This document shows positions 4,520 to 37,926 of a stretch of DNA of 64,000 nt, in pieces. The notes beneath the pieces are model-generated. The model saw nothing but the letters and a program-made list of their open reading frames with translations, ran no database searches and was not told the origin of the DNA. The translations under genes were made by a program, and so were the position numbers. Positions within the stretch are counted from its first letter, which is position 1; each line of letters begins with the position of its first letter. This stretch comes from Branchiostoma floridae (lineage: Eukaryota; Chordata; Leptocardii; Amphioxiformes; Branchiostomatidae): assembly GCF_000003815.2 (NCBI RefSeq), contig NC_049980.1, forward strand, positions 17,261,100 through 17,325,099, written 5' to 3'.

Positions 4520-7500
4520 ATGGCGGGTCTGTGGTGCAAATTTGCGCTCCGTGCAGTTGTCGTCTTCTCTCTCGTGCTTTCCCTCGTCCTGGGACAGAGT
4601 CTGGACGACGAGTACAAACATCTCTACGACAGGCACATGTTCGAGGAGGCTATAGAGGCTGCGCCGCATTTCATCATGTTTTTCGCGCCATGGTGAGTGT
4701 TTGAATGTTGGAGGCGGGTTTCAAGGGGAGTGGCAGATTATTAGGGGGGATATAAAACTAGATGTGCCGTTATAAAATCTGTAATCTTCCCAGACCCTAC
4801 AGTTATCAAGTTTATCTTCTTTAAAATGAGTTACGAAGACCCTATTTCATGTTTATCATTTTATCGGTTAAATCTAACACCGGGACATAAAGACCACTGG
4901 CTTTGAAGCAAGCAATAGGTAAGCGCCACGTAGCAAAACAGATCGATTATTCATACAAACTTCTGATCACTTCCGGCTAGACTAACGTTCATGGACAAGG
5001 TTTGACAACTGAATTTTAAGTGATTTCTACGGGGAAAGTTTAATCAAGAAAGTAATGTCCCTGGCCTAGAAACCTCCTTGTAAGAAATTGAAGTTGTGTC
5101 GAATGCCACGTGTCGACATTGTCTCGTGCTTTTGTGTTGAGTATAAATAAATCGATCAATTTTGCACTGTTTGCAGATGGAGTGACAACACGGTGTTAGC
5201 CCTAAGGGGATGCATATGAAACTTCATTCATTTTTCTTTTGATGATTGAAAATATTTGAAATACTCAGGACTGTCTTGTTTAAGAAATAAATCTCCTGGT
5301 ATGGCAGATCAATATCACTAAGGTTTGGTGGGAGTTTTGTGGAACATAAAGTTCTTTACCAATTTAATCAACTGGTTCTATGCATCCTCCTACGCAGGGA
5401 CATCCAGACAGGTAGTTTGGCTGTTGGATGTCCCTGCTTAGGAGGATGGTTCTATGAATAGGCCACCATTTTCATTCAGGAAAATTTTACCATTAAACTA
5501 CAATGGAGCAGTTCAACAACTTTCCTTTGTACTAGTAGTAAGTTGGCCTAAATTTGTGTACATTTGCATTGCAGTAAATTTTTTCATAAATGTAAGACTT
5601 ATGTACGTACATAAAAACTGAAATTTTGATAATTTTCAACAAACAGGTGTAGATAATTTACAGTGTTCGTGTTTATTTTTCAACTTTAAAACTTGGTATT
5701 CGGTATGTCATGTAAGCGCTTATATTGACCCAAAATTCTTTTTTTCTAAATTTGTTTCGCCCTGCCGCTCCATGTTTTTTTACAAACCAAGAACCTACAA
5801 ATTAAATTGATGTGGCCTAATTATCTTTTTGTTGACAGGTGTGGCCACTGTAAGAGGGTAATGCCTGTCTTTGATGAGCTGGCAGACAAGTACAACTTAC
5901 AGCAGTCTCCGAGACCTCCCCTCTACCTGGCAAAAGTATGTCCATTACAGTCATGGCTGTAACAACATAGAGAAATTAATTTAAGTAAATCACTCTGTTA
6001 TCGTCTTTTTACTCTGGAAACCATTGCATGTTTTTTATCATGTTAAATCAAGTGTATTATCTTTCCACAGGACAGGGTGTCTTTTTGGTATTTTTAGCAT
6101 ACTTGATATTCTGTCGAAGGTATCATGTTACACAGGACGATAGATTAGTGAATAAATCAATAAGCACATAGAAATTTATACAAGGGAAAATTCATAGAAA
6201 ATGCACTACAGAAAGAATGACTTTCACCTATTTCAAACTGTAAAAGATTCTTCACATACATTGCATTACAGTAAGAGAGATGACAAATCTTGAGGATTTA
6301 TTTTGCATGCAGCCTAATGACTAGCCAACTGGACCCTTTCAGCAGTACAGTCAAATATTGGCTACTGCTCGAGTCCATGATCATGTTATTTCTAAAGTAC
6401 CAGGGCTCGAAATACTGGGTGCATATGAACCCTGGTGCACCCAAAATTGGAGCTGTGCACCCAATTTTTTTTCTGTGTGTGCACTGTTGCACCCAAATAT
6501 TTTTTTGTAGGTTTCATATGTAAAGATATCAAAGTATACTAGTATACACCATATTCTTAACATCTTAGTGTTAGAAAGATAATAGAATGCCTGTCATAGT
6601 ACTTGTTTACAAATTTGAAGTTTGAATTCGGGTTTGTTAAAATTAGCTGACATTCTACTTTATTTTATGTGGTGCACCCACATTTTTTGCATCCGTGCAC
6701 CTAATCCCAAAAATGAATTTTGAGCCCTCAGTACTAGTACCCAGAAGATGCTGAGCTTTGTTTATTTGCAGGTGGACTGTACATCAGAAATTGCCTTATG
6801 TGATGAGCATGGAGCCACAGGATACCCAACGTGAGACATTCATATTGACATTTTCAATGATATTATCACAATTATATAGGTATAAATCCCTAAAACAAAT
6901 AATGTAAAATGAATTGTGAAAATTGTGATAATAAGAATTGAGTGACTGTACAATTGTCCAGATACTGTGATGGACTTAGAAGATAAGGCTGGTCATGGGT
7001 CATTAGTGCTACACATTGGACTAACATAGTTGATATGGATCATGTTTACATCTATTCTGCTAGCTTAGTCATACTTGCCTTTTGTATTTTTATTCCTTTA
7101 TGCAAATTGTAACTTACATGTTCATGTGTACATGAGAGTTGTACTAAGAATCAATGGTACCTATGTAATGTTTTCTTCCAGCTTCAAGATGTACAGGCCT
7201 GGCCAGGAAGTAGATCGGTACAAAGGCGAGAGGACAGCCAAGGCATTTGAGGATTACTTTACACAAATGACATCAGAAGTTGCAAAGGTATTTTTCCATC
7301 CCTCTGGGTTTTTAAACAATCTATTTTTCCTAGATCATGCTTTGTCTAGATCATCATATGTCCACTAAGTTCATTCTCTAGTCGTTAACAATTATCTTCT
7401 TTTTGTCCATACCAGCCTGTGCCACCTGAACCAAAACATGGTCTGTACAGTTTGGAAGCCGCTAACTTTCAGGACCATGTTGCAAAAGGTCTTCACTTTA

Positions 7501-9704
7501 TCAAGTTCTATGCTCCTTGGTGTGGACACTGCAAAAGGCTGGCTCCAACATGGGAGGAGCTAGCTACAACATTCGAACACGAGGAACATCTCACAATTGC
7601 CAAGGTATTATCTTCTTACTTCATCACTGGATTTGTACCTAATAATTTAGCATATTGTTTAATATCCATGTTATATTTTCTTTTCTCATAATAATGAATG
7701 AAGACTTTTATTGTACAGTTTTGCCCAACCGAGCTAAGTACAGGTCACAACAAGTCAAGATATATACATATAAAAGTATCACAAATCTAGTCTATAATAA
7801 CACAGCACTATTTTTATGCTACAGGTTGACTGTACCCAGGACTATGATGTGAAGGGATACCCAACTATTTTACTCTTCAGGGATGGGGATAAGGTAAGTT
7901 TTTTGTTGGTTGCCCATGTAATGAGGGTTGGGTGGGATTTCAGCTAGACTATGTCTCCAAAATTCTTAAGCCATAAAATTTATGGTGTAAAGACATTGTC
8001 TTAAGATATTAACTTTTAATTAAGTTAATGCCACCTTTCCCTGTTATTTGTATGTTCAAAGTCAATATTAGTAATCTATTTTTAGCTGGAGAGGTACAGT
8101 GGAGGACGAAGCCATGCTGAACTGAAAACCTATGTGTCGTCCAAGTTGGAAGAGTCCAATTTGTTTTGGGAAAAGGAGGCACTGAAGCCGAAGGAGACAG
8201 TAAAGATCCAGAAAAGTGGGGAAGGACCTAAGGAGCCAAAGGGAGAAATGCCTGCTGAACCAGAGGTAAGGTTACTGGTACATGTGTTCAGAATTCTGGA
8301 ATATCTTTGATGTGCTAATTGTTTTACAAGGCCAGGAAAGGCATTGTTTTGAAATGTTCCAAAAGCTTTGTATATACATGTATGTAGAGGGACATCAATT
8401 AAAGCCATCTTTATGCTTGAAGCCTTCCTTTGCATCTTCATTACTATGCTATTCTGGTAAACATTCCCTTGTCTATGGAAACAAGCTGCTTAAAGTTAAT
8501 ATTGTTAAAATGTTTCAGGATTTGTGTTGCTTTAATAGACTTAATGACTGTTTCTAGTTCCTTTTGGTGATGTGTCAAACATTGTTTATTTACAATATAA
8601 AGACATCCTTGAATAGATTGATGAGTTTGTTATGTTCAAAAATATTCTGGTTCCTGCTTGAAATGCCCTGTCTGCCAACCCACAACATTGTTGTTTCATC
8701 AGCCACATTAGCAGTCAAGAACAATTCTTTCTTTTTTTTTCAGAGCAAAGTACAGGCCTTAGATTCTGACACATTCCAAACAGAGATCAGCAAAGGGATC
8801 ACTTTTGTTAAGTTCTATGCACCATGGTGAGTGTGGACTAAATCAATTTGGTACTCAACTCATGTTGTTGTTAGCTGTGTATTTAACGACATAAATAAAG
8901 ATAGTAATTTGAAGCAGTGGATTGCTTTAACCTTGCAGTGTTCACTTTTAGGTGTGGTCACTGCAAGCGGCTGGCCCCCACATGGGATGCCCTGTCACAC
9001 AAGTTTCCTGACCAGCCTCACGTGAAGATTGCTAAAGTAGACTGTACCATGGCAGAGAACAAGGAACTCTGTCAGGACCAGAAGGTGGGCTGTCAGATAT
9101 TCTTAGGAAGTGTCAGAATTTAAAAAAACAAACAAATGTTCTTGCTACACTGGTCTAGGCTTCTATAAATCTAGTTTGATTTTAGAGGAAATGTGTCAAT
9201 GACAACCTCTCCATGAGAATTCAGTCATTGCACTTCTTCTATCCCTCACCATAGATACGAGGGTACCCTACACTCATTCTGTTTCGAGGAGGCAAGGCAG
9301 AACAATACAAAGGGCCCAGGGACCTCACAGAACTACATGCATTTGTCCGGAGGACCTTACGTGATGAACTATAAGAGTGGATTGTCACACACACTTGCTT
9401 TTCCAGGTTTTTATGTCTGGTTGTTTTTTCAGGGTGTAATGTGTTGAAGGTTTCCCTGCTCTTCTACTTATAATGTGGTGGTCATCAATGGAGGTGATGG
9501 CAATGACTTCTCTATAACATTAACATGAAAATGTAAGGCTTAAGTTCTTATACTTGTTCCGTATCTGTTTGTTTGTTGTAGGTGACAGGCTACCCCACAC
9601 TGATTCTCTTTAAGAATGGAGGGAGGATAGCAGACTACAATGGTGCCAGGACTCTGGAGTCTCTACATTCCTATGTTGTTGAAAAGACACACGATGAGCT
9701 TTGA
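4520..9704 (+). CDS. TXNDC5: TXNDC5-like ER protein disulfide isomerase, three thioredoxin domains (copy a)
   Basis: Exons: 4520-4692, 5839-5935, 6772-6830, 7182-7287, 7416-7604, 7825-7893, 8086-8265, 8744-8826, 8952-9084, then either 9255-9374 or 9582-9704. Phases match throughout, giving 402 or 403 residues. The start is the ATG of MAGLWCKF, which opens a hydrophobic signal peptide (about residues 1-25); an upstream in-frame ATG at 4373 is less suitable. Three thioredoxin domains each carry APWCGHCK, with CGHC near residues 59, 181 and 320. The protein ends in an ER-retrieval signal, RDEL or HDEL depending on the last exon. TXNDC5 (ERp46) introduces disulfides into nascent ER proteins, accepting electrons onto peroxiredoxin 4. 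Exon 6 reads [14 protein letters not shown], six residues shorter than the same exon in the tandem copy, which removes part of a helix and a cysteine of domain 2. A head-to-tail paralogue follows at 11140. Confidence 0.95.
5375..5456. mobile_element. 66-bp palindromic hAT-like MITE with 8-bp target duplication
   Basis: A 66-bp hairpin (5383-5448) has 24-bp arms with a single mismatch, starting CATCCTCCTA and ending TAGGAGGATG, around an 18-bp loop. It is flanked by perfect 8-bp direct repeats GTTCTATG at 5375-5382 and 5449-5456. An 8-bp duplication and ends beginning CA fit the hAT superfamily. It lies in intron 1 of TXNDC5a. Confidence 0.82.
6396..6734. mobile_element. About 330-bp inverted-repeat element with GTGCACCCAA repeats
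   Basis: The left end reads CAGGGCTCGAAAT and the right end reads as its near inverse (ATTTTGAGCCCTC). The flanks are AGTAC on both sides (6396-6400 and 6730-6734), a possible 5-bp duplication. The inside has several copies of GTGCACCCAA in both halves. It lies in intron 2 of TXNDC5a. The ends are supported by sequence; the superfamily is unknown. Confidence 0.55.
9255..9374 (+). CDS. TXNDC5: TXNDC5a alternative terminal exon 10A, ends RDEL
   Basis: Preceded by a good acceptor (CCATAG) and read in phase 0 from exon 9. It encodes 39 residues starting [14 protein letters not shown], with the cis-proline of the thioredoxin fold (GYPT), and ends RTLRDEL followed by TAA. It therefore completes domain 3 and supplies a KDEL-type retrieval signal. 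There is no AATAAA between this stop and exon 10B, so choice between the two exons is more likely by splicing than by early polyadenylation. Confidence 0.85.
   Translation: MRGYPTLILFRGGKAEQYKGPRDLTELHAFVRRTLRDEL
9582..9704 (+). CDS. TXNDC5: TXNDC5a alternative terminal exon 10B, ends HDEL
   Basis: Preceded by TTGTAG and read in phase 0 from exon 9, the same phase as exon 10A. It encodes 40 residues starting [14 protein letters not shown], with the same cis-proline motif, and ends EKTHDEL followed by TGA. It is clearly a duplicate of exon 10A with diverged sequence. Either exon, but not both in series, can follow exon 9, because exon 10A carries a stop. Confidence 0.85.
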   Translation: MTGYPTLILFKNGGRIADYNGARTLESLHSYVVEKTHDEL

Positions 9705-11055
9705 TGCCAACTGGAGATAGAGACAGGGATAGTTTTAAGCAGGGATAGTTTTAAGCCTTACTTACCTACATTTTTTTCTTTTGTTTGGACCACTTTTTTG
9801 GCTTCTATAACTTTTTGTCACTTGAAGTTTACCCTTTGTTTGAAATAACTTACTACATATCTAGTAATAATTATATTATTGTTAAGTTCAAGAGAACAGC
9901 AATGGAAAAAGTTGGCTTGTTATTAAAGGTCCTTCTCAAGTCATTTCACATGGAAAGGTATGAGCATGTTTTCCTTCAATCAAAATTAAGTTTTTTACAA
10001 GTTAATTGTCAGTTGATGAAAGGCATAATGTAAGTTATCATGAAATGACAAAAGTGCTTCTTTTTGGCATCAATGCAAAACCACCCACACAGCAGTGAGT
10101 CTGTATTTCATTTATAATACAAGGGATATATTGAGCTTTTGTCAGAGAGCAATTGGAATTATGGTTGGCCAGAAAGAAACACTGTCTTTTCCAAGTTGTA
10201 ACTGGAGCTGCCTGGGTAGTTGTTCCTTCCCATTTTACCTTCTATGCAAGGCATATGATATTTCATTTACCTATAGTAATGCAAGAAAGCAGTCGATCAT
10301 TAAATTTTCATGGAATGAGATTTAGTGTCAATGAGATTGTGCAATAAGACAGATATAAGAAATGATTTGAAGAGTATTAGTTATTAATTGATACCTTTTA
10401 TATTTATTCTATTCTGGAAGCACATCAGTTAATACTTAGTACATACCCAAGGCTTGGTCTCACCTATTTTTGGATATGCATCAGAATCTATCATATCACT
10501 TTTCACCCTTCACTGTTTTGTTTCAGACATACATTGAATGTAGAATTTCTCACATAAAATGTCTAGGTTGTAGTTATTACATTTTGCAAAATGGTAATTC
10601 GTAAATCCCTTTTGTAACTTGTGTAAAGAAAATTATTAAAAAAAGCAAAGATTGTGACGTCCATTGTTGTCTTATTTGTGATTACATTAAAGTTTTTAAA
10701 CAAATTATAAGTTTTCTCTTCTACCTCTCTGAAAGTACCTCTTATGGACTGGGACAAGTGGAATGTTAATAGAATATTCTAAACGTATGAAAGTTTGAAA
10801 CTAATGAGTACAATGTAGAGGCGCTTTCCACCTTAAGCAGGCTGTATGAAAATGACCTACCTGGTCTACTTTTCATTTGTATCATTGGTCACAGTGGCAC
10901 TACAGGGATAGTCATCAAAGGATTCCAAAGTTGATGGGAACTTTTAATGATGAAATATTCAACAAACAAATATTGTAAGGTTATCAGCTCACATGTGGAC
11001 TCCTTTCATTGGTTGTCTTGATCAAAATGATTAAATCTTAATGGAGATGGTGCTG
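9705..11055. other. TXNDC5a 3' UTR and spacer to tandem copy
   Basis: AT-rich sequence without a credible coding exon. An ATTAAA at 9922-9927, about 220 bp past the HDEL stop, could serve as a polyadenylation signal; this is weak. The frames of 60-80 codons here have no recognisable protein features. Confidence 0.5.
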
Positions 11056-11061
11056 TATAAA
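11056..11061 (+). promoter_or_regulatory. TATA box of TXNDC5b (candidate)
   Basis: TATAAA lies 79 bp before the start codon, which would place transcription start about 50 bp upstream of the ATG. It indicates that the tandem copy has its own promoter and is not read only through from TXNDC5a. Confidence 0.45.
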
Positions 11062-11139
11062 CAGTCCATGTGAGTAGAACAGCACACTAGTACTTCTGAT
11101 CAAGGAGGTTATCTCTATAACCTTGCTCTGACAAAAAAT

Positions 11140-14100
11140 ATGGACCATTGCAAGACTGCGTGCATCATTCTTCTTGCTGTCATCTGCGTGGTCACAGTTG
11201 CTACACAGGGTCAGGAACTACTGTACAGACACCTCCTCCCTCGTCCATGGTACTACAGGCACAACTTTGAGGAAGCAGTGCAGATGATTCCACACTTTAT
11301 CATGTTTTTCACACCAGGGTGAGTATAATGTACAGTCATGTTGTGTTAGCTGTTAAATGTACCTCCCATGGTAGTGCATGACCAATGTGTAGTGTAGTGA
11401 ATTTTGCCGTTTTTGACAAGCTGGTACTTACTCTAATTAATCAAATATTTCATTGGCCTTTTCCCCTTTTCTATAACCTCTACAGTGTCTAGCTAGATGT
11501 TTCTCGGTCATTCACTTTCCCCATCCTGGCCTACAGGGACATGTCCTTACAGGGAAAGTGCATGTAGGAAATGACCTGACACTGCTAGCTAGCACTGGAC
11601 ATACAGGTCAACACCTTGTATGATAGTAACAAAATATAGAGGGGTAAAAGACCCCACCCTACATACAATTGTGCTGTAATATCAAATTAATGCATTCTTC
11701 AGTGGCAAATGCTGATGACTTTCCCTAAGCAAAATAAGTTTCATGGCAAAGCTGTTTGTTTTCAGTCTGGAAAGTTTTTCCATTCTTGCTTAAAGCCAAT
11801 AGACTGATTTTCATGAGTTGGACCTGCAATTTGCTACTCCAAATCACCTTACAGATGTGAACAGTGTAAAGCCATGATGCCAAACTTTGATGAGGTTGCA
11901 GACAAGTACAACACAATGAAAACACCTCAAGTTATCCTGGCTAAGGTAACATTATGTGTTAGGTCAATAAAAAAAAACAGATCACATATTATACAATGTA
12001 AGCTTCATGAAGTTATTGTGCTGGTTAAAAACATGAAACAAGAACAGTGAAATTGAAACAATAGTTTTTCATGTATTGTTTTGGTTTGTATGAATGCTAA
12101 CTTGTTTAATGCTAACTTACATGTTTGGAATTTTTTATTTGGTAGCAGTAGAAATTTGTGATGTTCCTCTTAGTAGTTAAAGACAAGTATTGCTCAAAAT
12201 AAATGTAATTTATGTTCTTTATTTTAGGTGGACTGTAGTGCAGAAGTTGTCATATGTGAGAAGCAGGGAATCCGTGTATTTCCAACGTATGTATGTAACC
12301 ATTTACCAAGTAGTCAATATTACAGTTAGCATGTCAAAACATATTTTGTTTTATTGTGAAAATGGATGCTTACAATGAAAGACATATAGTTCATCAAGGT
12401 TAACAAGAGGTTCATATGACTTTGTGTTGTGTTACCTGTGCTTAAACATATGATGCTCCTTAATGGTGGTACACACATTTGTAGTGTGTATCTGTATCTG
12501 CAATCCAGTATAACTGCCTTTTAGCATAACACACCAGCATTGCAGGCACAGTGCAGAAGCAGCCTACTGAGTTACTCTGAATGACCTGTACCTAACCTTT
12601 GCACATGTAACTGTATGCGTTGTTTAGAGCTACATGTATCTAATGAGAATGCCTCTGAAATACTCGACTGCCTTGAGTTCCACTCACTTCTAGGAAAATA
12701 CATACATTGTTATTAAAGCAAATAATGTTTTGTTCTCTGTAATAGCTTCAAAATGTACCGGCATGGAGCAGACAATCACCGCTACAATGGAGAGAGAACT
12801 GTAGAAGCGTTTAAGAGCTACATCTCCAGCATGGTGCCTCCTGTGGTATAATTCATTATAATTCATTAAAGTTTCTCTTAACATTGCAATTTAAATGCAA
12901 TGTCTACAACTGAAACTTCATAATGTTTGTACTGAGAAATTTAATGTACTTGCAGATTTCAAGAATTTAATATTGAAAACATAGTACATTTTATATGTTT
13001 TGCGTGATCATACATGTTAATATACATTCCAAGAAGAAAACTACACCCGAAGTGAAGGGAACTGTATATAGACTGGCATCATCAAACTTCACTCGGCACA
13101 TCCAAGGGGGCCTTCACTTTGTCAAGTTCTTTGCACCATGGTGTGGACACTGCAAGAAGCTTGCGCCAGCTTGGGTTAAGCTGGCTCTCTCATTTAGTAA
13201 TGAAAAACACCTAACCATTGCAGAGGTAAAAGATTTATCATAGTATCCTTTAGAATGTTGAACATTTCATGAAGTCGTGAATTTACTCATCTGCTGCACT
13301 TTTAAATTTGTTGTTTTTAAGATTGAACATGATAACAGAGAATGGTAGTTCTCAACTATGCAAATTCTTGAGTTCACATTAACAAAAAAGTTTCCAAGTA
13401 AGGAAGGAGATAGCATGGATGTTTTACATTATTAACAAGTTACTATCATTGTCTTTCCCCATAGGTTGACTGTGTAGAGTATGATGTGCTGTGCAAGAAG
13501 TATGATGTGGACAAATTCCCGACTCTTATGATGTTCAGAGATGGAAAGGAAGTAAGTATGGTGTACATAATGCTCAACAAGGACATACCTAATAAGCAAT
13601 TGTAAAAATCTGTGCTTCTGTAGCATACTCAAATTACTGAGCTGAGGGAAACAAAGATCCTGTTCATATTGCCTTACCATACCCACGTGTTCATAATCAG
13701 CCAGTTTCTATCTGTTCTATGTGGTAGTGAAAGGCTCCCTTTGAAATCAGTGGAATAACTGAAGGGACTACCTACAGACTCAGAAGTAATGTGCCAAATA
13801 TGATTTCGAATAACTGTCTAGGTTGACCGGCATCTGGGGGAACAAGGCCTTGAAGACTTGGAAAGTTATTTATCTGAGAAACTGGAAGAAACCATCAGCT
13901 ATTGGGAGAGGACTGGGCTGGATCCAGGAAACCCAGCAAAGGGAAAATCTAAAGTAGAGGTATTTAACCACTGATATTGATATTAGCCCGCCTCAGCAAA
14001 GACTGATATGTGGCGAGGAGGATGGTTGGATTGATATTAGCACATCATGATACTTTTCTGTTTTTGTTCAGTCTAAACAAATTGATAGACAGGTTCAGGT

Positions 14101-15106
14101 TAATCACAAAATTATTGTCAGTTTTTTAAGTTTTTCATGGTGGGGCAAAGATAAATCACATTCCATTTGAATCATGTTGATAGCCATTCATTGGAAGTAT
14201 CAAGGATTGGAAATTTCAACAGTGAACAAGTTATAAACGTATGTACATGTTAGTATTGGTTACAGTTGAATCAAGCTGATACATGCGGCATTAATATGAT
14301 AACATGTAAACATTTACCAGTGGTAAACATATGCTCTGTGTTCCTCTCTAGAGTAAGGTGCTGATCCTGACCAAAGACAATTTCCACTCTGTGATAAGGA
14401 AGGGGATGACCTTTGTTCAGTTCTACGCTCCTTGGTGAGTGAAGTGGAGTAAATTGTATGATATCAGTATGCATGGTTTGCCAAGCAGGCAGACTTGAAA
14501 CTGGTAACTAAAAGATATCTAATATATCCTGTTGAACCACCTGGCATACCAAATATTCTATTTGAGACCATGGTTAGGTAATTAGGACTGACAATCATTG
14601 ATAGTTAAGTGATGGTTGGCAGGATTATATTACATGTCATAAAACATTCCATACAGGTGTGACCACTGTAAGACGCTGCTCCCTGCATGGGATGCTTTGT
14701 CCTTCAAGTTCCCAAAGCGTCCTCATATTCAGATTGCCAAGATGGACTGTACAGCACATGGGAACAACAAGATTTGTCAGGACCAGAAGGTTGGTAGGGA
14801 TTAAGTTACACTGTGATGATTCTAGTGACCAATGAATTTATCATGGTAGTGATAAGAAAGTCTGTTGGTTAGTTTATACATGAAGTTCAAATTTATTTAC
14901 TACATGTAGTAGTGAATCTACACACCTATCAGGAAATGAGAAGCCCCATTTTGCTTGTTCTCCAGATAACAGACTACCCTACGCTCATCCTGTTTAAGAG
15001 TGGGAGGCACATAGGGGAGTTTGGTGGGGACGAGAATTTTGAGTGGACAGTGGACTCCATGCACAACTTTGTAGCCACAAGTCTACATGTTCATGATGAC
15101 TTATAA
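11140..15106 (+). CDS. TXNDC5: TXNDC5-like protein, tandem copy b with altered active sites
   Basis: Exons: 11140-11318, 11855-11945, 12228-12286, 12746-12845, 13034-13225, 13465-13551, 13822-13959, 14352-14434, 14657-14789, 14966-15106, giving 400 residues. Intron positions and phases are the same as in TXNDC5a (exons 3, 8 and 9 have identical lengths: 59, 83 and 133 bp), so the pair arose by whole-gene tandem duplication. A signal peptide covers about residues 1-24. The active-site motifs are PGCEQC (about residues 59-64, replacing PWCGHC), PWCGHC (about 178-183) and PWCDHC (about 309-314). Losing the Trp and the Gly-His pair in domain 1, and Gly in domain 3, should change redox potential and speed; only domain 2 is canonical. 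The C-terminus is HVHDDL, a departure from KDEL/HDEL that may retrieve poorly. Expression is not shown by sequence, but all splice sites and frames are intact. Confidence 0.93.
12485..12538 (+). repeat. Dispersed repeat (copy 1), also at 51079-51134
   Basis: The stretch containing GTATCTGTATCTG and, further on, AACACACCAGC recurs in the same orientation at 51079-51134, with about 80 percent match over 55 bp. It sits in TXNDC5b intron 3. It is probably the end of an interspersed element whose remaining body is not recognisable. Confidence 0.5.
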
Positions 15107-16246
15107 TGCATAGATCAGTGGTACGGTAATCAATGATGACACCATCAGTTCTAAAGCTGTTGTCATTTTGTTTCATTTTTTATCATTATCATAACAAAGA
15201 ATATTGTTAAAACTGTAGGCTAGATTGGACAATACATGTAGTATATACATATAAAGCAACAAGAATGTTATACTGTAAAACATTACAGCAACAAACAGCC
15301 ACATAGCTGACTACTGTTTCAATCCAATCTGTATATTAACTTTTCTTAGGAACAGTACAACAGCTCACCTTTGGCACACAGGACAACTTTACAGTTAAAA
15401 TAAATGTATGATATGATTACAGTAAAACCAGCCCTGTAGATACTTAAAAAACATCATAGTGATCTATCATTTTTGTACAGCATACATTCAGATACGCAAG
15501 ACTAATTTATAAGGCAAAGAGCAAGGCAGTTGATTTCCATTGTTGGCAAAAGTGGCAACTTTTCATTAGTCACTATTGAATTCTTTCATGTCAATGTAAG
15601 CTGTATCAACATTCACTATCTACAACTTCCACGGCATACTTTATTCAGTTAATTGGACCTTGGGCAGAGACATGAGGAGCACATCTAAATAAGGCAAGGA
15701 TGTACTGTTCCATATTCTGCCCTTAATATAATTTCTTTGATTTTTTTGTTATTGAATGTAGAATTGAAAAATACAAATAAGCACACTTATTCATAGAACT
15801 TCATACTGAAATAAGCAGAACAATTACATAACAGTGAAAAGTAAGAAGAGTTTTCCTCTCAATACATTAAACCCTTACAAAAATACCAATTTATGTACGT
15901 TGTATTTCTCCTGTAGTTTTTTCACAATGACATAAACTAGTATGTACATGTATGTAATGTTTGGAAAATTAAAACACAATCAAAAGCCTTTGAAAACAAT
16001 GTGCACAGTATTGCTGCCTATATAGCTATTCTGGGATGATCTGAATGACTGTAGATATGATGGCTAATTCCACACAGGTCAACATTGTCCCTTCAACAAT
16101 TTAAAATACCTTAAGAGCCTTATAGAGGTAGAAAAACAAGAGCACTTTGGGATTTAATACACATCAAAATCACAGTCACCATTGCACACCAACACGATGC
16201 CAATGAATATCTTGCTCATCAAGACTTCATAATATTGTGCTTGGTG
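15107..16246. other. Convergent 3' UTR region of TXNDC5b and PGPEP1
   Basis: 1.1 kb between two facing stop codons. AATAAA at 15399-15404 is well placed for TXNDC5b (about 290 bp past its stop). TTTATT at 15640-15645 (AATAAA on the minus strand) is about 600 bp past the PGPEP1 stop. No coding exon is visible. If longer 3' UTRs are used, the two transcripts would overlap. Confidence 0.5.
15399..15404 (+). terminator. Polyadenylation signal of TXNDC5b (candidate)
   Basis: Canonical AATAAA hexamer 293 bp downstream of the TXNDC5b stop codon, the first such hexamer on this strand after the stop. Confidence 0.45.
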
Positions 16247-19200
16247 TCAACAGTGATTTTGCAAAGAGAGGCCAGCTGTTCCCTCCTCTTTTTTCTCCTT
16301 GAGGAATTTCAGCATGGTTAAGATGATTTCCCTTAGAGCTGAGCCAAGCACTTGTGCAGAGAAAGGCTTGTCGAGAGGTGGAACATGTATGAAGGCTGCA
16401 TTCCTCGAACCACAGTGTAAGGAAGTGTAGTAGGAAAAGTCACACAGGTACCTGGGAAAGACAACCATGCATTAGCAATTACATGCAGAAAAGATTATAA
16501 TTCATGCCTTTTCAATAAATATTTTGCACCACATCACTGAGAAAAAAATACGCATCTGAGCTATTTAGGTCAGATTCTCCCAAATAATGGTTTATGCTTG
16601 AAAAAATTGCACCATGTTGACCTAGCATAAGCTTTCCTTAAAATAATCAAGTTCTAATACAGAAAAAGCCGCTTAATTGCACAGCCTATTTGCCAGTAAA
16701 TTTCTTGCAATTATCCGACTGGTGCAATAATGCGAAGTTATCTAGCTGGACTAAACCCGTTGGGGATTTTAAGATTCTGTGCAGTTACCAGAAGTGTGCA
16801 TTAATCTGTTGTGCAATTAACTGGCTTCTANNNNNNNNNNNNNNNNNNNNNNNNNNNNNNNNNNNNNNNNNNNNNNNNNNNNNNNNNNNNNNNNNNNNNN
16901 NNNNNNNNNNNNNNNNNNNNNNNNNNNNNNNNNNNNNNNNNNNNNNNNNNNNNNNNNNNNNNNNNNNNNNNNNNNNNNNNNNNNNNNNNNNNNNNNNNNN
17001 NNNNNNNNNNNNNNNNNNNNNNNNNNNNNNNNNNNNNNNNNNNNNNNNNNNNNNNNNNNNNNNNNNNNNNNNNNNNNNNNNNNNNNNNNNNNNNNNNNNN
17101 NNNNNNNNNNNNNNNNNNNNNNNNNNNNNNNNNNNNNNNNNNNNNNNNNNNNNNNNNNNNNNNNNNNNNNNNNNNNNNNNNNNNNNNNNNNNNNNNNNNN
17201 NNNNNNNNNNNNNNNNNNNNNNNNNNNNNNNNNNNNNNNNNNNNNNNNNNNNNNNNNNNNNNNNNNNNNNNNNNNNNNNNNNNNNNNNNNNNNNNNNNNN
17301 NNNNNNNNNNNNNNNNNNNNNNNNNNNNNNNNNNNNNNNNNNNNNNNNNNNNNNNNNNNNNNNNNNNNNNNNNNNNNNNNNNNNNNNNNNNNNNNNNNNN
17401 NNNNNNNNNNNNNNNNNNNNNNNNNNNNNNNNNNNNNNNNNNNNACAGGCAGCTCTTCAACTCGGAGGTCCACATCCTCTCCTAGGCCAAGCTTTGCCAT
17501 TTCCTAGAAAAACAGAAGAGCATGTTGATACTGCTAGATTTTACAATTATTTAGGATGCTTTAATAACTGTTAACCAGTATAAAGTTAAAGGCATACTAC
17601 GGGATTTTTGAACAAAACAAAAAGTAGCTTTTCCTACTTTTTCTTATCATTGTTAGTTCAATCAACCCTATAGCATTGCATACCAATGTTCAGGGAGAGA
17701 TGCTGCGACATCAATGCACCACATAAGCATGATGTATAAAAATTGTGATCTTCCAAGAAACAGATGGGCACAGGCTGGTTACTGCCTCTGTGTGTTGTTG
17801 TTTCTTGCTTATCAGCCTGGCTTCCCAGTGGGGGGCCAGTTGACAGTTCCTCTGAGTACAGTAGACTAGCTTTCTGTACAAGGTTTCTTGCAGTTTTGAA
17901 GGGAATATGACCTCAGCTTGATGGTATCCTACAAAATAGACTAATAAGTTCATGATTATATGCTATTTTAGAATGATTAGATCAAGGAGATTTTGTTAGC
18001 TCCTTGATTAGATATAGGTGTTTCCAAAGAAGATCTCAATTGTGCTCTTTATCTGCAGTCTGCCATGCATGTGCTAACTGAATACACCACCCCGGGGGAC
18101 CTACTGGTGGCAAGCAAGACCCGGAGGGTCTAACTTGGGGGGACACAAGGTTACAGGGTGCCTAGAGCGAAATGTTTGTAGGCTAATCCTTTACGTTGCA
18201 AACGTGAAATAATGACACAAAAGTGTCATAAAGTGACAAAAAGTAGTAGTAAAGCTGATATTTCTTAATTCTAGAATATTTCAAATTTGAGCGCAAAAAA
18301 CTGCGTAGTATGCCTTTAAAGCATGACATTGCTTGCAGATTTAATCATCACCAGTCCTGTACTTTACAAAACTTGCCACTTTCTTCCTTAAACACAGCAT
18401 GCGATCCCATGTAGAACGGGATACCACTATATCAGTTAGAGTACTGTTTGGTGGCAATACCGTGAACTTTCATTTAGCTGCAACCAAAAAGTGGCAGAAG
18501 CTTGGCGTTACAATTGTAGTTTTCAACAAAGAGGCTCAAGTTTTATAGACTTCTGTTGTCTCAGCAACAGGTGGTTGCAAACTGGTTACTATACTCGTGT
18601 GTTTGAAAAAAAGCTCATTTCTTAACCGCTGATTTGCTGACAGCTGATTGCCAAAACTGACATTTAAGAGCGGTAGGCAGAAAAGCAATGTACCTTTCCT
18701 CTATTACATACATACATACATGTCCTTTATTTTAACTAGATGGCCCAGTCGGCCAAAGCCACTATTCCCAGAGGTCAAGTACGAGGGGGCAGGTGGTCAC
18801 GGGAAATACATTGTAAACAAACAAATACTTTACATTTGACTAATCATCCAAAAAAACAAACAAAATCACAGTCCTAGTCCAAATCAGTCATCATTCACCA
18901 AAGTTGTCATGCTGTTTCTAAAAGCCCTGAAACCAACCGTGACCTCCTTACTCCATTTCTTCTAACTCTAGGCACCACAAGTTTGTATGTTGATGATTGC
19001 CTGGTGGTCCTGTTAGTATTGTCTCGACAAGATATAAACAGTTCTCTCATATATAATGGTAACATGTTATTCGTAGACTTATAAAAAATATCAGGAGCTT
19101 AAATGTGTTTTGTGTATTGTTACCACATCTTTCCATCCAAGAGACGTGTGCTACAGGTGAAGGTGGTCTAGGCCGCAGACCCAGGACAAGTTTCCCTACC

Positions 19201-20016: not shown

Positions 20017-23000
20017 ATGGCGAAGGAAGGCAGTGTTCGAGGTATGTTTTGGTTTTACAAAACAAGGACAGAAATTTGCGACAAACTATGCCTCCACAAT
20101 AAGATGCTTCCAATTGAATGTTCATTATTTGCTTTGATGAAAATTGTCCGAAACTGGCCAAGATTTGTTGAAATCGTAGCATGTTATTCAACGGGGAGGG
20201 AAGGGGACTTTGAATGGAAATGGAAGGGGAAAGTTCATAGGAATGGCGCCATCCAGTTCCGTTTTAAGGAAACGTCACCAATAAATGATAAACATCCTAG
20301 TACTGCAGTAGTAATTCATTCATGGGGAAAATGGAAGGAAATGCAAGGAACATGTTTTATGATGATCATCATCCTGTCACCTATCAGGTGGCCGACTTCT
20401 CTACCAGGGGTCATTGACCTTTAAACAACCTGTCAGCCTTCTCACATTCACCTGTAGGGCATATAGCATTAAAACATGCCAGCAATGTCATGACTGTCAA
20501 CCTTATGTGCCATTGGTCCGTTGTGACTTAGGGACCATCCACTTGATATCAAACAGGGTGCTTGTTATATTATATTATATCATAAATTTTTCAATTGATG
20601 TTTTTGTGAACAGATGAGAGGGGGTTATCATAATCAATGTTATTGTTCCAAGCTCTGTAGACAACACACCCACTTTTAGTACATAATGTGTTTAGTTTTC
20701 TTTACTTACATTTTCTTCCAAATAAAATAAATACCAATTGCCTTTGTTTTTGTTCATTAACTAAAGTAATTTTTCTAAAATTGCTGATGAATAATAATCA
20801 GGTCTTGACTAAGGAACTGTTGAGAGAAAACTGTTCTCTGTATGCAAGAAAAAGTTAAAATCTTTCTCAAAAGAAATGGCAAGTGGTCTCCACTTGGTTA
20901 CTACTTATGATAAATGAATTTTCATTAATCATAGTGGTATGACTTGTCTGTGCTATTGGAAAACAAGGACAAGTCTGATGGTAACTTAGACACTTGAAAT
21001 GTTGGACAACTTGCACACTCTGAGCTGAAAGAATTTTAGAAGGCTTGCAGAATCAGAGGGTAATGCGCCAAATAGACTGTTGTAATATTACACCTTGGAG
21101 ATTTCTGGCCCTGCACAAGATAAACAGCAGCAAATAGACCTTGCAGGATTGTCTACTGCCTCAGTTTCTCAGTTATAATTATCAACTCCTCAAAGCAGAT
21201 TATTATTGCAAAATATTTAACCTTAATTTATTCAAATTGTCTATCAGAAGATTAGCTGCCAATAATGCATGTTTGAGAGAAATTAGCTAGTACAGTAGTA
21301 GCATTAACCTCCCTCATGCAGACATACACATGTCTGACCCAGTTTTGTGTAAAGGCTCATTATGTATGTAGGTCATGTACATACAGGACACACTTTGTGT
21401 ACAGTAATCTCAACATACAATCTGCAGACAGTCTAGCACACTGCATGCTGTGCAGGGGTGCGCCGATGTAAGCACTTCCATCTGTAGTCAAAATCCTGAA
21501 GACTTTCAGTTATTTTCAAAACAATTGGATCTAGGAATCATGGTTGTTCAGAATGGAGGGACTGCAGGTAATGTAGCTAATTTCTTATGTTATTTTCTAA
21601 CACAGCTCATTGTTTTCCACTTGTCAATTTACAAAGAATTGAGAATTAAGAATTACTCCTCTTCTTGTTAATGTTTGCATTAATCAAGGAAAATACATTT
21701 TGGTCAGAAACAGAAGTCCTGAGTGTATTCCAAGCTAAACAAGGAAGGGTCAGGGAAGATAGTATTTCCAAGAGGAATTTAACATGACTTAAGACTGTTT
21801 ATGGACCATCAGGCCATCCATTGTTCTGTTTGTTTTACTTGTTTTGGTAATATGTTTGTTTTCCAGTGGGACTTGCATTTTTGAAAAATTCATTGACCAA
21901 ATTTTCATTGTTAAATTGTGCACAGCAGTTTGATAGAAGGTAATCTGAGCCCAAACTATGTCAACATGCTGTACACTGAATGTACAATGGGGTCAATAAC
22001 CTAAAATACTGTACACTGAATGTAGGTCATGTTTGTTCTCAATTTCTTGGTACTCAGACTGAACTTTCAAAAACAGGTCATTGGAAAGTAAAAAAGTGCA
22101 AAGTAGAAAACAGACTTGGAGAGGCATGTTGTGGCAGTTTCTGGTTGCAATCCACCTATTCTGTTATAGATTTATGTTGTTGATTCTTGCATGACTTAGT
22201 TAGATATAGGTTAGCCATTGAATTTTATGTAAAGTAAAATTGTTCTTTCACATATTAATTTTAACTTAATTTTGATATATTGAGATTGCAGACAATGCAA
22301 ATATGCTATTGAGTAGAATTATGTTTGTGTATCTGTCTATACGAGACTGCTAAAACTAGAACAACCATTTATGTTTTTTCCCCAGGTCTGTTTCCAGTTG
22401 ATATCCTTACATCGACCACCATCCCTGAGAAGGGGGAGGCAGCAGACTTCATCTCAACTCTGAGCTACAATGGGAAGGAGGCAGAAATCCTGCAGTGCAG
22501 CAAATGTAGTGGGCAGGTATTAGTAACTGTCATTTCATAATAGAACACTCACTACAATTAGGGCTCCAATAATTTCATTCAAACATCAGGCAAGGATTGT
22601 CAGTCAATCAGTAGATTCAGATGACATTTAAACAATTTCTGTCCCTAATGCTGAAAGACATTCAAGTCAAACTGTTTCCACTGTCCTTGGTAGTGAACGA
22701 CATTCTAGATCCACAGTTAACCATGTTCCTTTTAACCTTACCTGATTGACTGCTGTCCCTGTCCTTGGTGCTGAATGACATTCTAGACCTACTGGTGCCT
22801 TGGTCCTTGGTACTGAATAGCATTCTAGATTGACTGTTCCCATTGTCCCAGGTGCTGAATTACAATGTAGAGTTACTATTGACTCTGTCCCTGGTGCTGA
22901 ATGACATCCTGGAGCTACTGTTGACTCCGTCCCTGGTGCTGAATGACATCCTAGAGCTACTATTGACCCTGTCCTGGCGCTGAATGACATCATAGTGCTA

Positions 23001-26000
23001 CTATTAACCCTGTCCATGGTGCTGAGTGACATTCTAAAGCTACTATTGACTCTGTCCCTGGTGCTGAATGTCATTCTAGATCTAATGCTGCCCTGCCGCT
23101 GGTTCTAAATGTCATTCTAGATCTACTGTGCCCTTCTCCTGGTGCTTTATGACATGTTAGACCCACTGTTACCTCTATGCCTGATAACATACTGCACAAA
23201 ATAACGCACTAGAGCTATGATTACCCCTATACAATGGGGTCCTAGATCTACTGTTACCCTGTCCATGGATCTGAATTGCATTCTAAATTAACTGTTGCAC
23301 CTGTCCATGGTGCTAAATGATGTTATTTGTCTCTGGTGCTGAATGAGGTAATATGTAGGCAATATCATTGTACTGTCAATTACATTCTATGCTATAGGTG
23401 ATTTTTTGTGTGTGCTAGGTTGCAGCCACTCGTGCTACAGTGAGTGTCCAGGCCATTTTCAGCAGTTTCAGTGACTACAGTGTGCCATCCTTGTACTGCG
23501 GAAAATGTCACTTTCCCTGTAAGTCACATATTTTGCAAAATAAGGCTAGTCCAGCTACTCCATGATCACAAGGTCAACAAGCTAAACAGAATTAAAAAAG
23601 ATAAAACAAATATATGACTTTCTGATAAAAAGGGGTAGAGGAAAGTGGAAATCTGCCAATTTGTTCACATATAGCAAAGCAACAGCTACATGTGTAGCTA
23701 TAAATATATTCATGGTATGACTGTTCCAATAAGTACAAACAACATATAGTATTAATACCTAATACCTGCTTGGACGCGCTCATGCTTCACATTATTTTTC
23801 AGGGCTATCAGGAGAAAGAACATGTCCTATGAGTATGTTTTTGATCATATTTGTGCTTAATTGACTGCAGCGAGTATTAACACACATCATGTGCATGTAT
23901 GTGGAATGGACTTCAGGTTCTTGTCTCTTCACTTACACTATCCAGTTTCTTGTCTATGTTTCTATCCCTGTTCTGACTAGCTTATATTTTCTCTTATTTC
24001 ACCCTGTTGTCATTTCACTTCAGGTGATAATGCACTTTTATCATTATTATAAAGTAATTAGCAGTGTCCTATCAGAAATGATATCTCTTAAGGCTATATA
24101 AAAGATGCTCTATTTTGATTGTAGCTTTTAGCCATTGACCATAATTCACCATCTATATCTGTATTTGTACCACCCCCAGTTGTAGGCTTGCATGTTGCTG
24201 ACGAGTGGTGGACAGTAGAAGAACTTCTCACATCGAGGGACTCAAGCAGACAGGGTTTTCATAAGGTATAGCAAATTTATACAGTTCTATAGGTAGTGAC
24301 AATTCATAACCTATGGATACAAATTTACTTTGCATTATGAGTCATGTATCTTGCTATGACATTTAGAACCACACTGGAGAGTATATTCACACTGTGCCAA
24401 ACTCCACTTTATGATGATCAGTTTTTATATACCTGTATTATCTCATAACAGGTTGAGACACTTGGGGAGCGCCTTGTTCTCTTTGTGCTGAACCGTATTG
24501 TGTACCGGTGCTGTGACATGGACAGCAACACAGACAGCCCATTCCTCACACACTCTGCTAAGGAGACAGCCAAATTGCTGTGGGTGGATGGAAAGGCAGT
24601 TGGCTTTTATACAGTCAAGCTAAAAGGTAGGCCTTACACCTGAACTTTGACTACACTTGGCCATATGAGTGAGTCCAAAGACATCAAATTACCTTATGCT
24701 ATCTTTGCCAATATGTCACATGATCACAAGGGATGGAATGATACGATGAATCCATATGCTTAGGCACAACACCCCTCAATAATCTCATGATGAGCCAATA
24801 GTTTGCGTTACTAGGAAATTAGCATTTATACAATGTCATATCAATGAAATCACAGTAGATGAATCCTCATCATTTTGTCTCTTTTTACAGGTACCTTATG
24901 TCATGCTTTCCTGAACAAAGTCTATGGGCTGAACTTGATTGACACCATCTTCATCAGGAAGTCATACCGTAACCGTGGCTACGGTTTGCAGCTGTTGGAG
25001 GACATACTAGAGAGTCACTCTGAGGGCAATGTTGGGTTCAGCTACCCCATGTCTGACTCCATGTATGCAGGTAATGATCTTATCTACCATAGTATGTTTC
25101 TAGGCTGTAGAAATGATTTGAGTAAGCCATGTTTTGCCATGACGTATATTGTATGTGTTGAACCTTTTACTTGTTTTGCCCTACGTATTATTGCTTTGCA
25201 GAAGTGGTGGCATGTGTTATAATTTTAGAATAAGTTGTCCTTGTTTTTTTGCATTCAAAAATGTTTTATCTAATGAAAGTAATCACCCTGTATTTGTTAT
25301 CTTTGCAGTGTGCTACAAGTACCTGCAGAGCCATGGGAGGACAGAGATTACCCGTGGGGAATGCCTGGCACCCTGGAGATGAGATGCAGAGGGCCAACAT
25401 CTGGCTACAGCTACATGGGGAGAGGAAAGCCATAGCCCAGGCAGTGGAGGCCAAAATCAGCCTCACAACTCCTGTACAGTGTTCCCTCATTACCATGCTT
25501 TCTATAATTCATGAATTTTTGTGTTTCTCTTTTCTAATTAATTGGCTGCTAACAAAGCCGAAAGATCAACATATTTCTTCTTCTTCTTCGTCCCGTAGCT
25601 CAGCTCAACATACAGTGCCATTATTTATTGTGCATAATGTATGTAGACAGAGAAGCCTTTGTAAGGAATGTGTCATTATGCAAATAAATGTAGAGCATTG
25701 ATCTTGATGTTACATTTAATGTTTCAAGGTGAATGGTGACATGGGCAGCAGTGAGGAGAACTCCATGGAAGTGGAGGAGTCTGCCGATGACTCAGTCTGT
25801 ACTCCATCAGAGGAAGAGGTCACTGAACCCGAACAACCTAAGGGAAGCCAGGAGGATGACATCATGATGCAGGAAGAAGTTGAGGACCAAGAAGAAGAAG
25901 ACAAAGTGGAGAAAGAGAAGGAGGAGGAAGTACCAGAGGCTACAGAGGATGAGATGGAAGAGGAAGAGATGGAGAGCCAAGTGGAGGAGGAGGAAGTCCA

Positions 26001-31968: not shown

Positions 31969-37093
<5,125 letters not shown>

Positions 37094-37926
37094 GGACGGC
37101 TGATGGCTACATATTCTCAGTGTTGCTGTGGACACAGAGGAAACGGCAACAGGTTATAGTAGACATTATATTGGTCATGTGTAACACATTATCTAGTAGC
37201 ACATGAATGGAAAAAACACCCCCAATGGTCAAGGAGTGTGAATTAAGGAAGGCAAAACAGACATATTCCAGTGTCTTTCATGATATTCCATGTCTCATGT
37301 TGTTACATTACTTACTTGCTCATGTGATACAGCCTACTGCAGATTAAGCAGAGATTTAGACATGAAACAATGAAAACATCCAAAGTGAAACACAATATGC
37401 ATGGTTTCCGTCAATACCTAAGGGCAAAAGGTTGTCATGTGACAGAAGCAGAAATAGGCACTGGTAATCTGACTAATGGGCAACTCATACTTTATTTCCC
37501 TGTAAGTGCCAAAATGTGAGCATAATAACTTATTCCACCTTGGACATCCAGTGTAGAACAGGTTTACTATCAATCTCAATATAGCACACCATGGTCAAAC
37601 AACACCAATGAAAAACAACTGAGTACTCAGTGTAGACAGACAAAAGACTCAAAGCTCAATGAACATACTCTAGACCAAACCAGACTCTTAACAACCAAGA
37701 CAGGGTCTGTAATTTAAAATGTCAAGGTCATATATGTGCCCTTGCAGCTCTGATCTCACTGTAAACACCTCAACTGACAACGGTCACTGAACTTGAAGCC
37801 TTACATATTGATGATATATCGGCTCACTACACTCAACACAACACACCAATTTTTAGGTGAACTTTGAATCTCCCAAAAGAGCTAGTAGTTATAAACATCT
37901 ACCAATCAGAAGGCTTGCAACTAGGA

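Follow-up and report, generated by a model that had tools for sequence, protein, structure and literature searches.

A TXNDC5-type gene of amphioxus with two homologous terminal coding exons ending in RDEL and HDEL

A TXNDC5-type gene in the genome of the amphioxus Branchiostoma floridae, referred to here as gene a, is followed by two homologous terminal coding exons, A and B, that end in the retrieval signals RDEL and HDEL. Gene a probably gives rise to two TXNDC5-type oxidoreductases, each of full length, with both endings functional and used. Exon 9, the last exon common to both forms, would be joined either to A, by way of a near and weaker acceptor, or to B, by way of a far and stronger one. 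A functional difference between the two products would lie in client choice by the third thioredoxin domain, in affinity for the KDEL receptor, or in both.

The stretch of DNA analysed here (the window, 64,000 nucleotides) is C2:17261100-17325099 of a 513-Mb genome in 431 contigs. The nine exons common to both forms of gene a lie on the plus strand between 4520 and 9084 and comprise 363 codons (exons 1-5 at 4520-4692, 5839-5935, 6772-6830, 7182-7287 and 7416-7604; exons 6-9 at 7825-7893, 8086-8265, 8744-8826 and 8952-9084). All of the introns between them are bounded by gt and ag, the frame is open throughout, and exon 9 ends in phase 0 at CAGAAG/gt. The start codon is assumed to be the ATG at 4520, with another in-frame ATG found upstream, and the translation has a hydrophobic stretch just after its first residues. 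The Pfam thioredoxin profile matches three stretches, corresponding to three thioredoxin domains that each carry a CGHC motif. In a search of PDB sequences the B form, compared at full length, matched human TXNDC5 (8eky_M) over residues 29-403 with an E value of 3.7e-114, and this was the sole PDB sequence at E values up to 1e-60. The A form was compared by way of domain 3 only, and human TXNDC5 was the top PDB match for domain 3 both with A and with B. On sequence grounds, gene a is a TXNDC5-type (ERp46) gene, with three CGHC thioredoxin domains, a KDEL-type end, and TXNDC5 as its closest solved relative.

Relative to human TXNDC5 and to gene b, a tandem paralogue discussed below, exon 6 of gene a (7825-7893) is missing six residues in domain 2, a conserved cysteine among them. 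The shortening is in frame, and may represent a true deletion, allelic variation or a slip in the assembly. Elsewhere in the window, an imperfect intronic repeat at 22670-23104, with a unit like ctggtgctgaatgacatcctagagctactattgac, is open on the minus strand, and minus-strand frames at 33601-37153 resemble, by eye, portions of a mitochondrial protease subunit of the ClpX type.

Terminal coding exon A occupies 9255-9374 on the plus strand and encodes 39 amino acids that end in RDEL before a TAA stop codon; terminal coding exon B occupies 9582-9704 on the same strand and encodes 40 amino acids that end in HDEL before a TGA stop codon. Each exon follows an ag acceptor in phase 0. The initial annotation had described the two as homologous exons that continue from exon 9 in phase 0, rebuild the second half of domain 3 and close with different KDEL-type signals, and the sequence bears this out, with boundaries that are exact to the base. 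The spliced models contain no internal stop codon, giving 402 amino acids for exon 9 joined to A and 403 for exon 9 joined to B, and the two exons are identical at 20 of 39 residues. In six-frame searches of the genome, which scored the best candidates only (5 with A as query and 4 with B), the exons were reciprocal best non-self matches among the matches listed, B being recovered with A at an E value of 1.7e-4 and A with B at 3.0e-4. The second non-self match listed for B was the last exon of gene b (E 0.0058). Exon A also shares 22 of its 39 residues with human TXNDC5, and is one residue shorter than both B and the human protein in the strand-turn region. Domain 3 scores 99.7 bits against the Pfam thioredoxin profile with A and 105.1 bits with B, and therefore neither ending spoils the domain profile; taken alone, A scores 21.1 bits and B 26.5 bits against a cut-off of 23.5. 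Thus, A and B adjoin one another, are homologous, share the same phase and encode the same segment of the protein, as do mutually exclusive homologous exons.

The further claim, that these are mutually exclusive last exons, is correct for translation, because the stop codon of A lies before B. The description of two last exons needs to be qualified, as the mRNA of A may run through B as 3' UTR. None of 14 types of poly(A) hexamer is present between the stop codon of A and the acceptor of B (9375-9581), although 54% of shuffles of that stretch likewise lack all 14. Downstream of B, several hexamers are present at 9705-11139, including ATTAAA at 9922, 10299, 10635 and 10686, and the hexamer scan places a probable 3' UTR, perhaps common to both forms, at 9705-10691 on the plus strand. 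With no 3' end of its own visible for A, a shared 3' end is the simplest reading, for which the lack of hexamers is weak evidence: the two forms may differ by a choice between two 3' splice sites, with B inside the 3' UTR of A, and both mRNAs may end at one poly(A) site beyond B.

The splice sites are suggestive of such a choice. The donor of exon 9, common to both endings (9085-9090, plus strand, AAG/GTGGGC), is weak, with a matrix score of 4.52; of 17 further donors in genes a and b, just one scores lower, the matching donor of gene b. With an acceptor matrix built from the 17 other acceptors of the two genes, a small set for which ranks are rough, the acceptor of A scores 5.56 (5 of the 17 are lower) and that of B scores 11.7 (13 of the 17 are lower), placing both within the range of the other acceptors. 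Among the 47 AG sites between 9105 and 9760, the acceptor of B ranks first and that of A sixth, the remaining sites that outscore A being three AGs in the intron (9433, 9186 and 9407) and a fourth inside B (9589). The intron from exon 9 to A is 170 nucleotides and that from exon 9 to B is 497 nucleotides. Competing sites often combine a weaker acceptor close by with a stronger one farther off, downstream of a poor donor, and the acceptors of A and B would both be used in RNA. Within the last intron, the segments 9123-9137 and 9563-9577 form inverted repeats, of a repetitive kind, that might pair the pyrimidine tract of B with intron sequence.

The divergence of the two exons points to a long history. 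NG86 estimates for A and B are a dS of 1.51 and a dN of 0.45. The corresponding values are 2.10 and 0.64 for A and exon C, the last exon of gene b, 1.37 and 0.44 for B and C, and 1.81 and 0.38 for exons 1-9 of gene a relative to gene b; all of these dS values are close to saturation. The ratio pN/pS is 0.52 for A and B (bootstrap 0.34-0.76; Fisher p 0.005), 0.61 for A and C (0.39-0.93; p 0.010), and 0.53 for B and C (0.31-0.92; p 0.004). Differences between A and B fall at 13, 14 and 22 of 39 sites at codon positions 1, 2 and 3, respectively, a pattern that, together with the Fisher p of 0.005 for synonymous versus nonsynonymous differences, indicates that their likeness has been held at the protein level and is not due to chance. 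Neutral drift was simulated with present-day B as the start, 20,000 runs being made per setting; where indels were included, they occurred at one tenth the rate of substitutions. At 0.45 substitutions per site, 0.4% of the runs without indels and 0.04% of those with indels still had an open frame and a [KRH]DEL ending (an open frame alone survived in 15% and 2%), and at 0.75 substitutions per site the figures were 0.025% and 0.005%. Because neutral drift over such distances so rarely leaves both the frame and a retrieval signal, A and B are, as judged from their sequences, old exons that selection kept through most of their history, recent loss aside.

Recent loss is the main alternative: only one of the two exons would be used today, the other having lost its role so recently that decay is yet to come. 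The exon in use would more likely be B, because its acceptor is the stronger, that of A being outscored by three intronic AGs. Drift of 0.1 substitutions per site leaves an open frame and a [KRH]DEL ending in 26% of runs without indels and in 10% with indels, so that recent loss of use of one exon would be invisible in sequence. However, A retains its frame, its acceptor, RDEL and the 22 residues in common with human TXNDC5, and pN/pS is below 1 for A-B, A-C and B-C alike. Single use of one exon is thus judged unlikely, but it is the most serious of the alternatives to two forms in use.

The origin of the two exons involves gene b, which begins 1.4 kb downstream of gene a and lies at 11140-15106 on the plus strand, with 10 exons encoding 400 amino acids. 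The active-site motifs of gene b are CEQC, CGHC and CDHC, the usual motif having gone from two of the three domains, and it has a single terminal exon, C (14966-15106, plus strand), that ends in HDDL. Lacking a classical retrieval signal, the product of gene b is perhaps a secreted or specialised form. In a four-sequence comparison with human TXNDC5 as the fourth sequence (39 columns, 5000 resamplings), A grouped with human TXNDC5 and B with C in 87% of resamplings by identity and in 85% by BLOSUM62. This weakly favours A as the original ending of TXNDC5, with B and the ending of gene b sharing a common descent. Such a grouping could have arisen either if the exon doubled before the gene did, with gene b keeping only the B type, or by an early move of an exon between the neighbouring genes.

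Relics of either exon were sought in the last intron of gene b (14790-14965), where none was found, A scoring 18 against a shuffle mean of 19.9 and B scoring 23 against one of 20.9. Beyond gene b, a match to A at 15760-15825 (score 40, reached by 5 of 2000 dinucleotide shuffles) was rejected as chance, being AT-rich, with a stop codon inside and without exon context. Between A and B, a further match to A at 9443-9538 (score 36, reached by 6 of 8000 shuffles, with identity at 39 of 96 bases) directly follows a good acceptor at 9433. This segment may represent a third copy of the last exon that has decayed, but as one of ten region-by-query comparisons it is not relied on here.

The proximity of gene b also raises the idea that one of the endings belongs to a different transcript, for instance a remnant of a third tandem gene that has lost its upstream exons, reached by read-through or trans-splicing only. 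A tandem paralogue 1.4 kb downstream and the weak grouping of B with its last exon would fit such a history. Yet B begins at precisely the same codon of the protein, and in the same phase, as A and C, lies 207 bases from A, and can be reached directly from exon 9, making a separate transcript very improbable. Least probable of all is an assembly error that set two exons side by side. The window does have N gaps elsewhere (1559-1658 and 16831-17444), but none separates exon 9 from B; the two exons disagree at 19 of 39 residues, which is too far for alleles; and each has one exact match among the genome matches listed.

If gene a does make two proteins, they would differ in the carboxy-terminal part of domain 3 and in the retrieval signal. 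By thioredoxin anatomy, we take the switched stretch to be the two final strands plus the final helix of the domain; its net charge is +3 in A and -1 in B. Both forms retain the CGHC motif of domain 3, its cis-proline loop (GYPT) and the conserved arginine of a Y-x-G-x-R turn, an arginine that is missing from C. We take this arginine to be Arg120 in PDI numbering. In PDI, movement of Arg120 modulates the second step of active-site oxidation, according to one study (PMC9598436).

The residue by which RDEL and HDEL differ is the one that determines affinity for the receptor. In a study of the vertebrate KDEL receptor, dissociation constants of 0.24 uM for HDEL, 1.94 uM for KDEL and 2.71 uM for RDEL are given, such that HDEL binds about 11-fold more tightly than RDEL (PMC8248988). 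A Pfam search of the amphioxus genome found two KDEL-receptor exon matches 2.2 kb apart (C13:163817-166527), and the genome apparently has one KDEL-receptor gene, with a predicted product very close to the chicken receptor. In an alignment with the chicken receptor from the PDB, D50, E117 and W120 are unchanged, E117 falling at a predicted exon end. The different affinities that had been proposed for the two endings are thus upheld for the tetrapeptides on the vertebrate receptor, and the amphioxus receptor keeps these three residues. The effect on location may be small, because KDEL, RDEL and HDEL reporters were all retrieved in cells in the same study, where all three had a similar effect on the distribution of the receptor and retention was poorer for HDEL than for KDEL or RDEL (PMC8248988).

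Taken together, the open frames, the completed domain, the pN/pS of 0.52, the drift result, acceptors within range and the conserved receptor residues support two forms in use. Against this stand the three intronic AGs that score above the acceptor of A, the score of A alone below the Pfam cut-off, the residue by which A is short, the retrieval of both RDEL and HDEL reporters in cells (PMC8248988), and the invisibility of recent loss. A more ambitious proposal, which we offer tentatively and consider rather doubtful, is that of an ancient, selected switch, in which the forms differ in their third catalytic domain and by roughly an order of magnitude in KDEL-receptor affinity, splicing tunes client choice together with the retrieval or leakage of one enzyme, and a decayed third copy may lie between the exons. 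If true, the gene would be a natural experiment on the purpose of the differences between KDEL, RDEL and HDEL, as one gene would place two signals behind an identical first 363 residues, and it would part the fixed half of domain 3 from a swappable half. Gene b, with its single last exon and HDDL end, would provide a built-in comparison.

Further cases were looked for in the same genome. Across 36 loci, with roughly 1.5 kb of forward strand scanned to either side of the match, a span that leaves most last exons of other genes outside, the only frames ending in [KHRQN][DE]EL were A and B. Six other thioredoxin-family loci were scanned over 5.8 to 7 kb of downstream sequence, and three of them had a terminal frame, with KDEL or RDEL and one ending each, the three showing no terminal frame being uninformative; one of the loci with such a frame had an extra frame ending in SEDL that, by eye, is unlike the first. 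No second gene with two such endings was seen in this small sample. Among the open-licence papers listed, as covered by titles and the starts of abstracts, no report was found of two KDEL-type endings in one TXNDC5 gene or another thioredoxin-fold PDI gene. Searches of open-licence papers found none joining TXNDC5 with amphioxus, none joining ER retention signal, KDEL and mutually exclusive exons, and none joining TXNDC5, exon, KDEL and invertebrate. These literature searches are also what bears on the remark of the initial annotation that no such arrangement was known in vertebrate TXNDC5.

Genes in which alternative last exons are homologous and supply different targeting signals are already known, and two KDEL-type ends in TXNDC5 are an arrangement for which no report was found. 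A close counterpart in protein architecture is human TXNDC5 (ERp46), the closest solved relative of both forms, which likewise has three thioredoxin domains, CGHC motifs and a KDEL-type end; unlike gene a, the human chain (8eky_M) has one ending, KDEL, and we know of no second homologous last exon in the human gene. In the case of crld-1 (CRELD) of C. elegans, exons 9a and 9b are alternative last exons of an ER protein termed a disulfide isomerase, one of which gives a KDEL end (PMC6245729). The crld-1 gene resembles gene a in having alternative last exons, an ER protein and one KDEL-type end, but its other form ends in transmembrane segments rather than a second KDEL-type signal, and no thioredoxin domain is switched. 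A close parallel in exon arrangement is KRAS, where exons 4A and 4B are homologous last coding exons, chosen exclusively, that change a C-terminal targeting signal, and where one of the two has been suggested to derive from a related gene, as described in a preprint (PMC9882654). Gene a would share with KRAS the exclusive choice between homologous last coding exons and the alteration of a C-terminal targeting signal. In KRAS the choice concerns the membrane targeting of a GTPase, whereas in gene a it would concern half of a catalytic domain together with the signal for retrieval to the ER, and the gene that likely served as donor adjoins.
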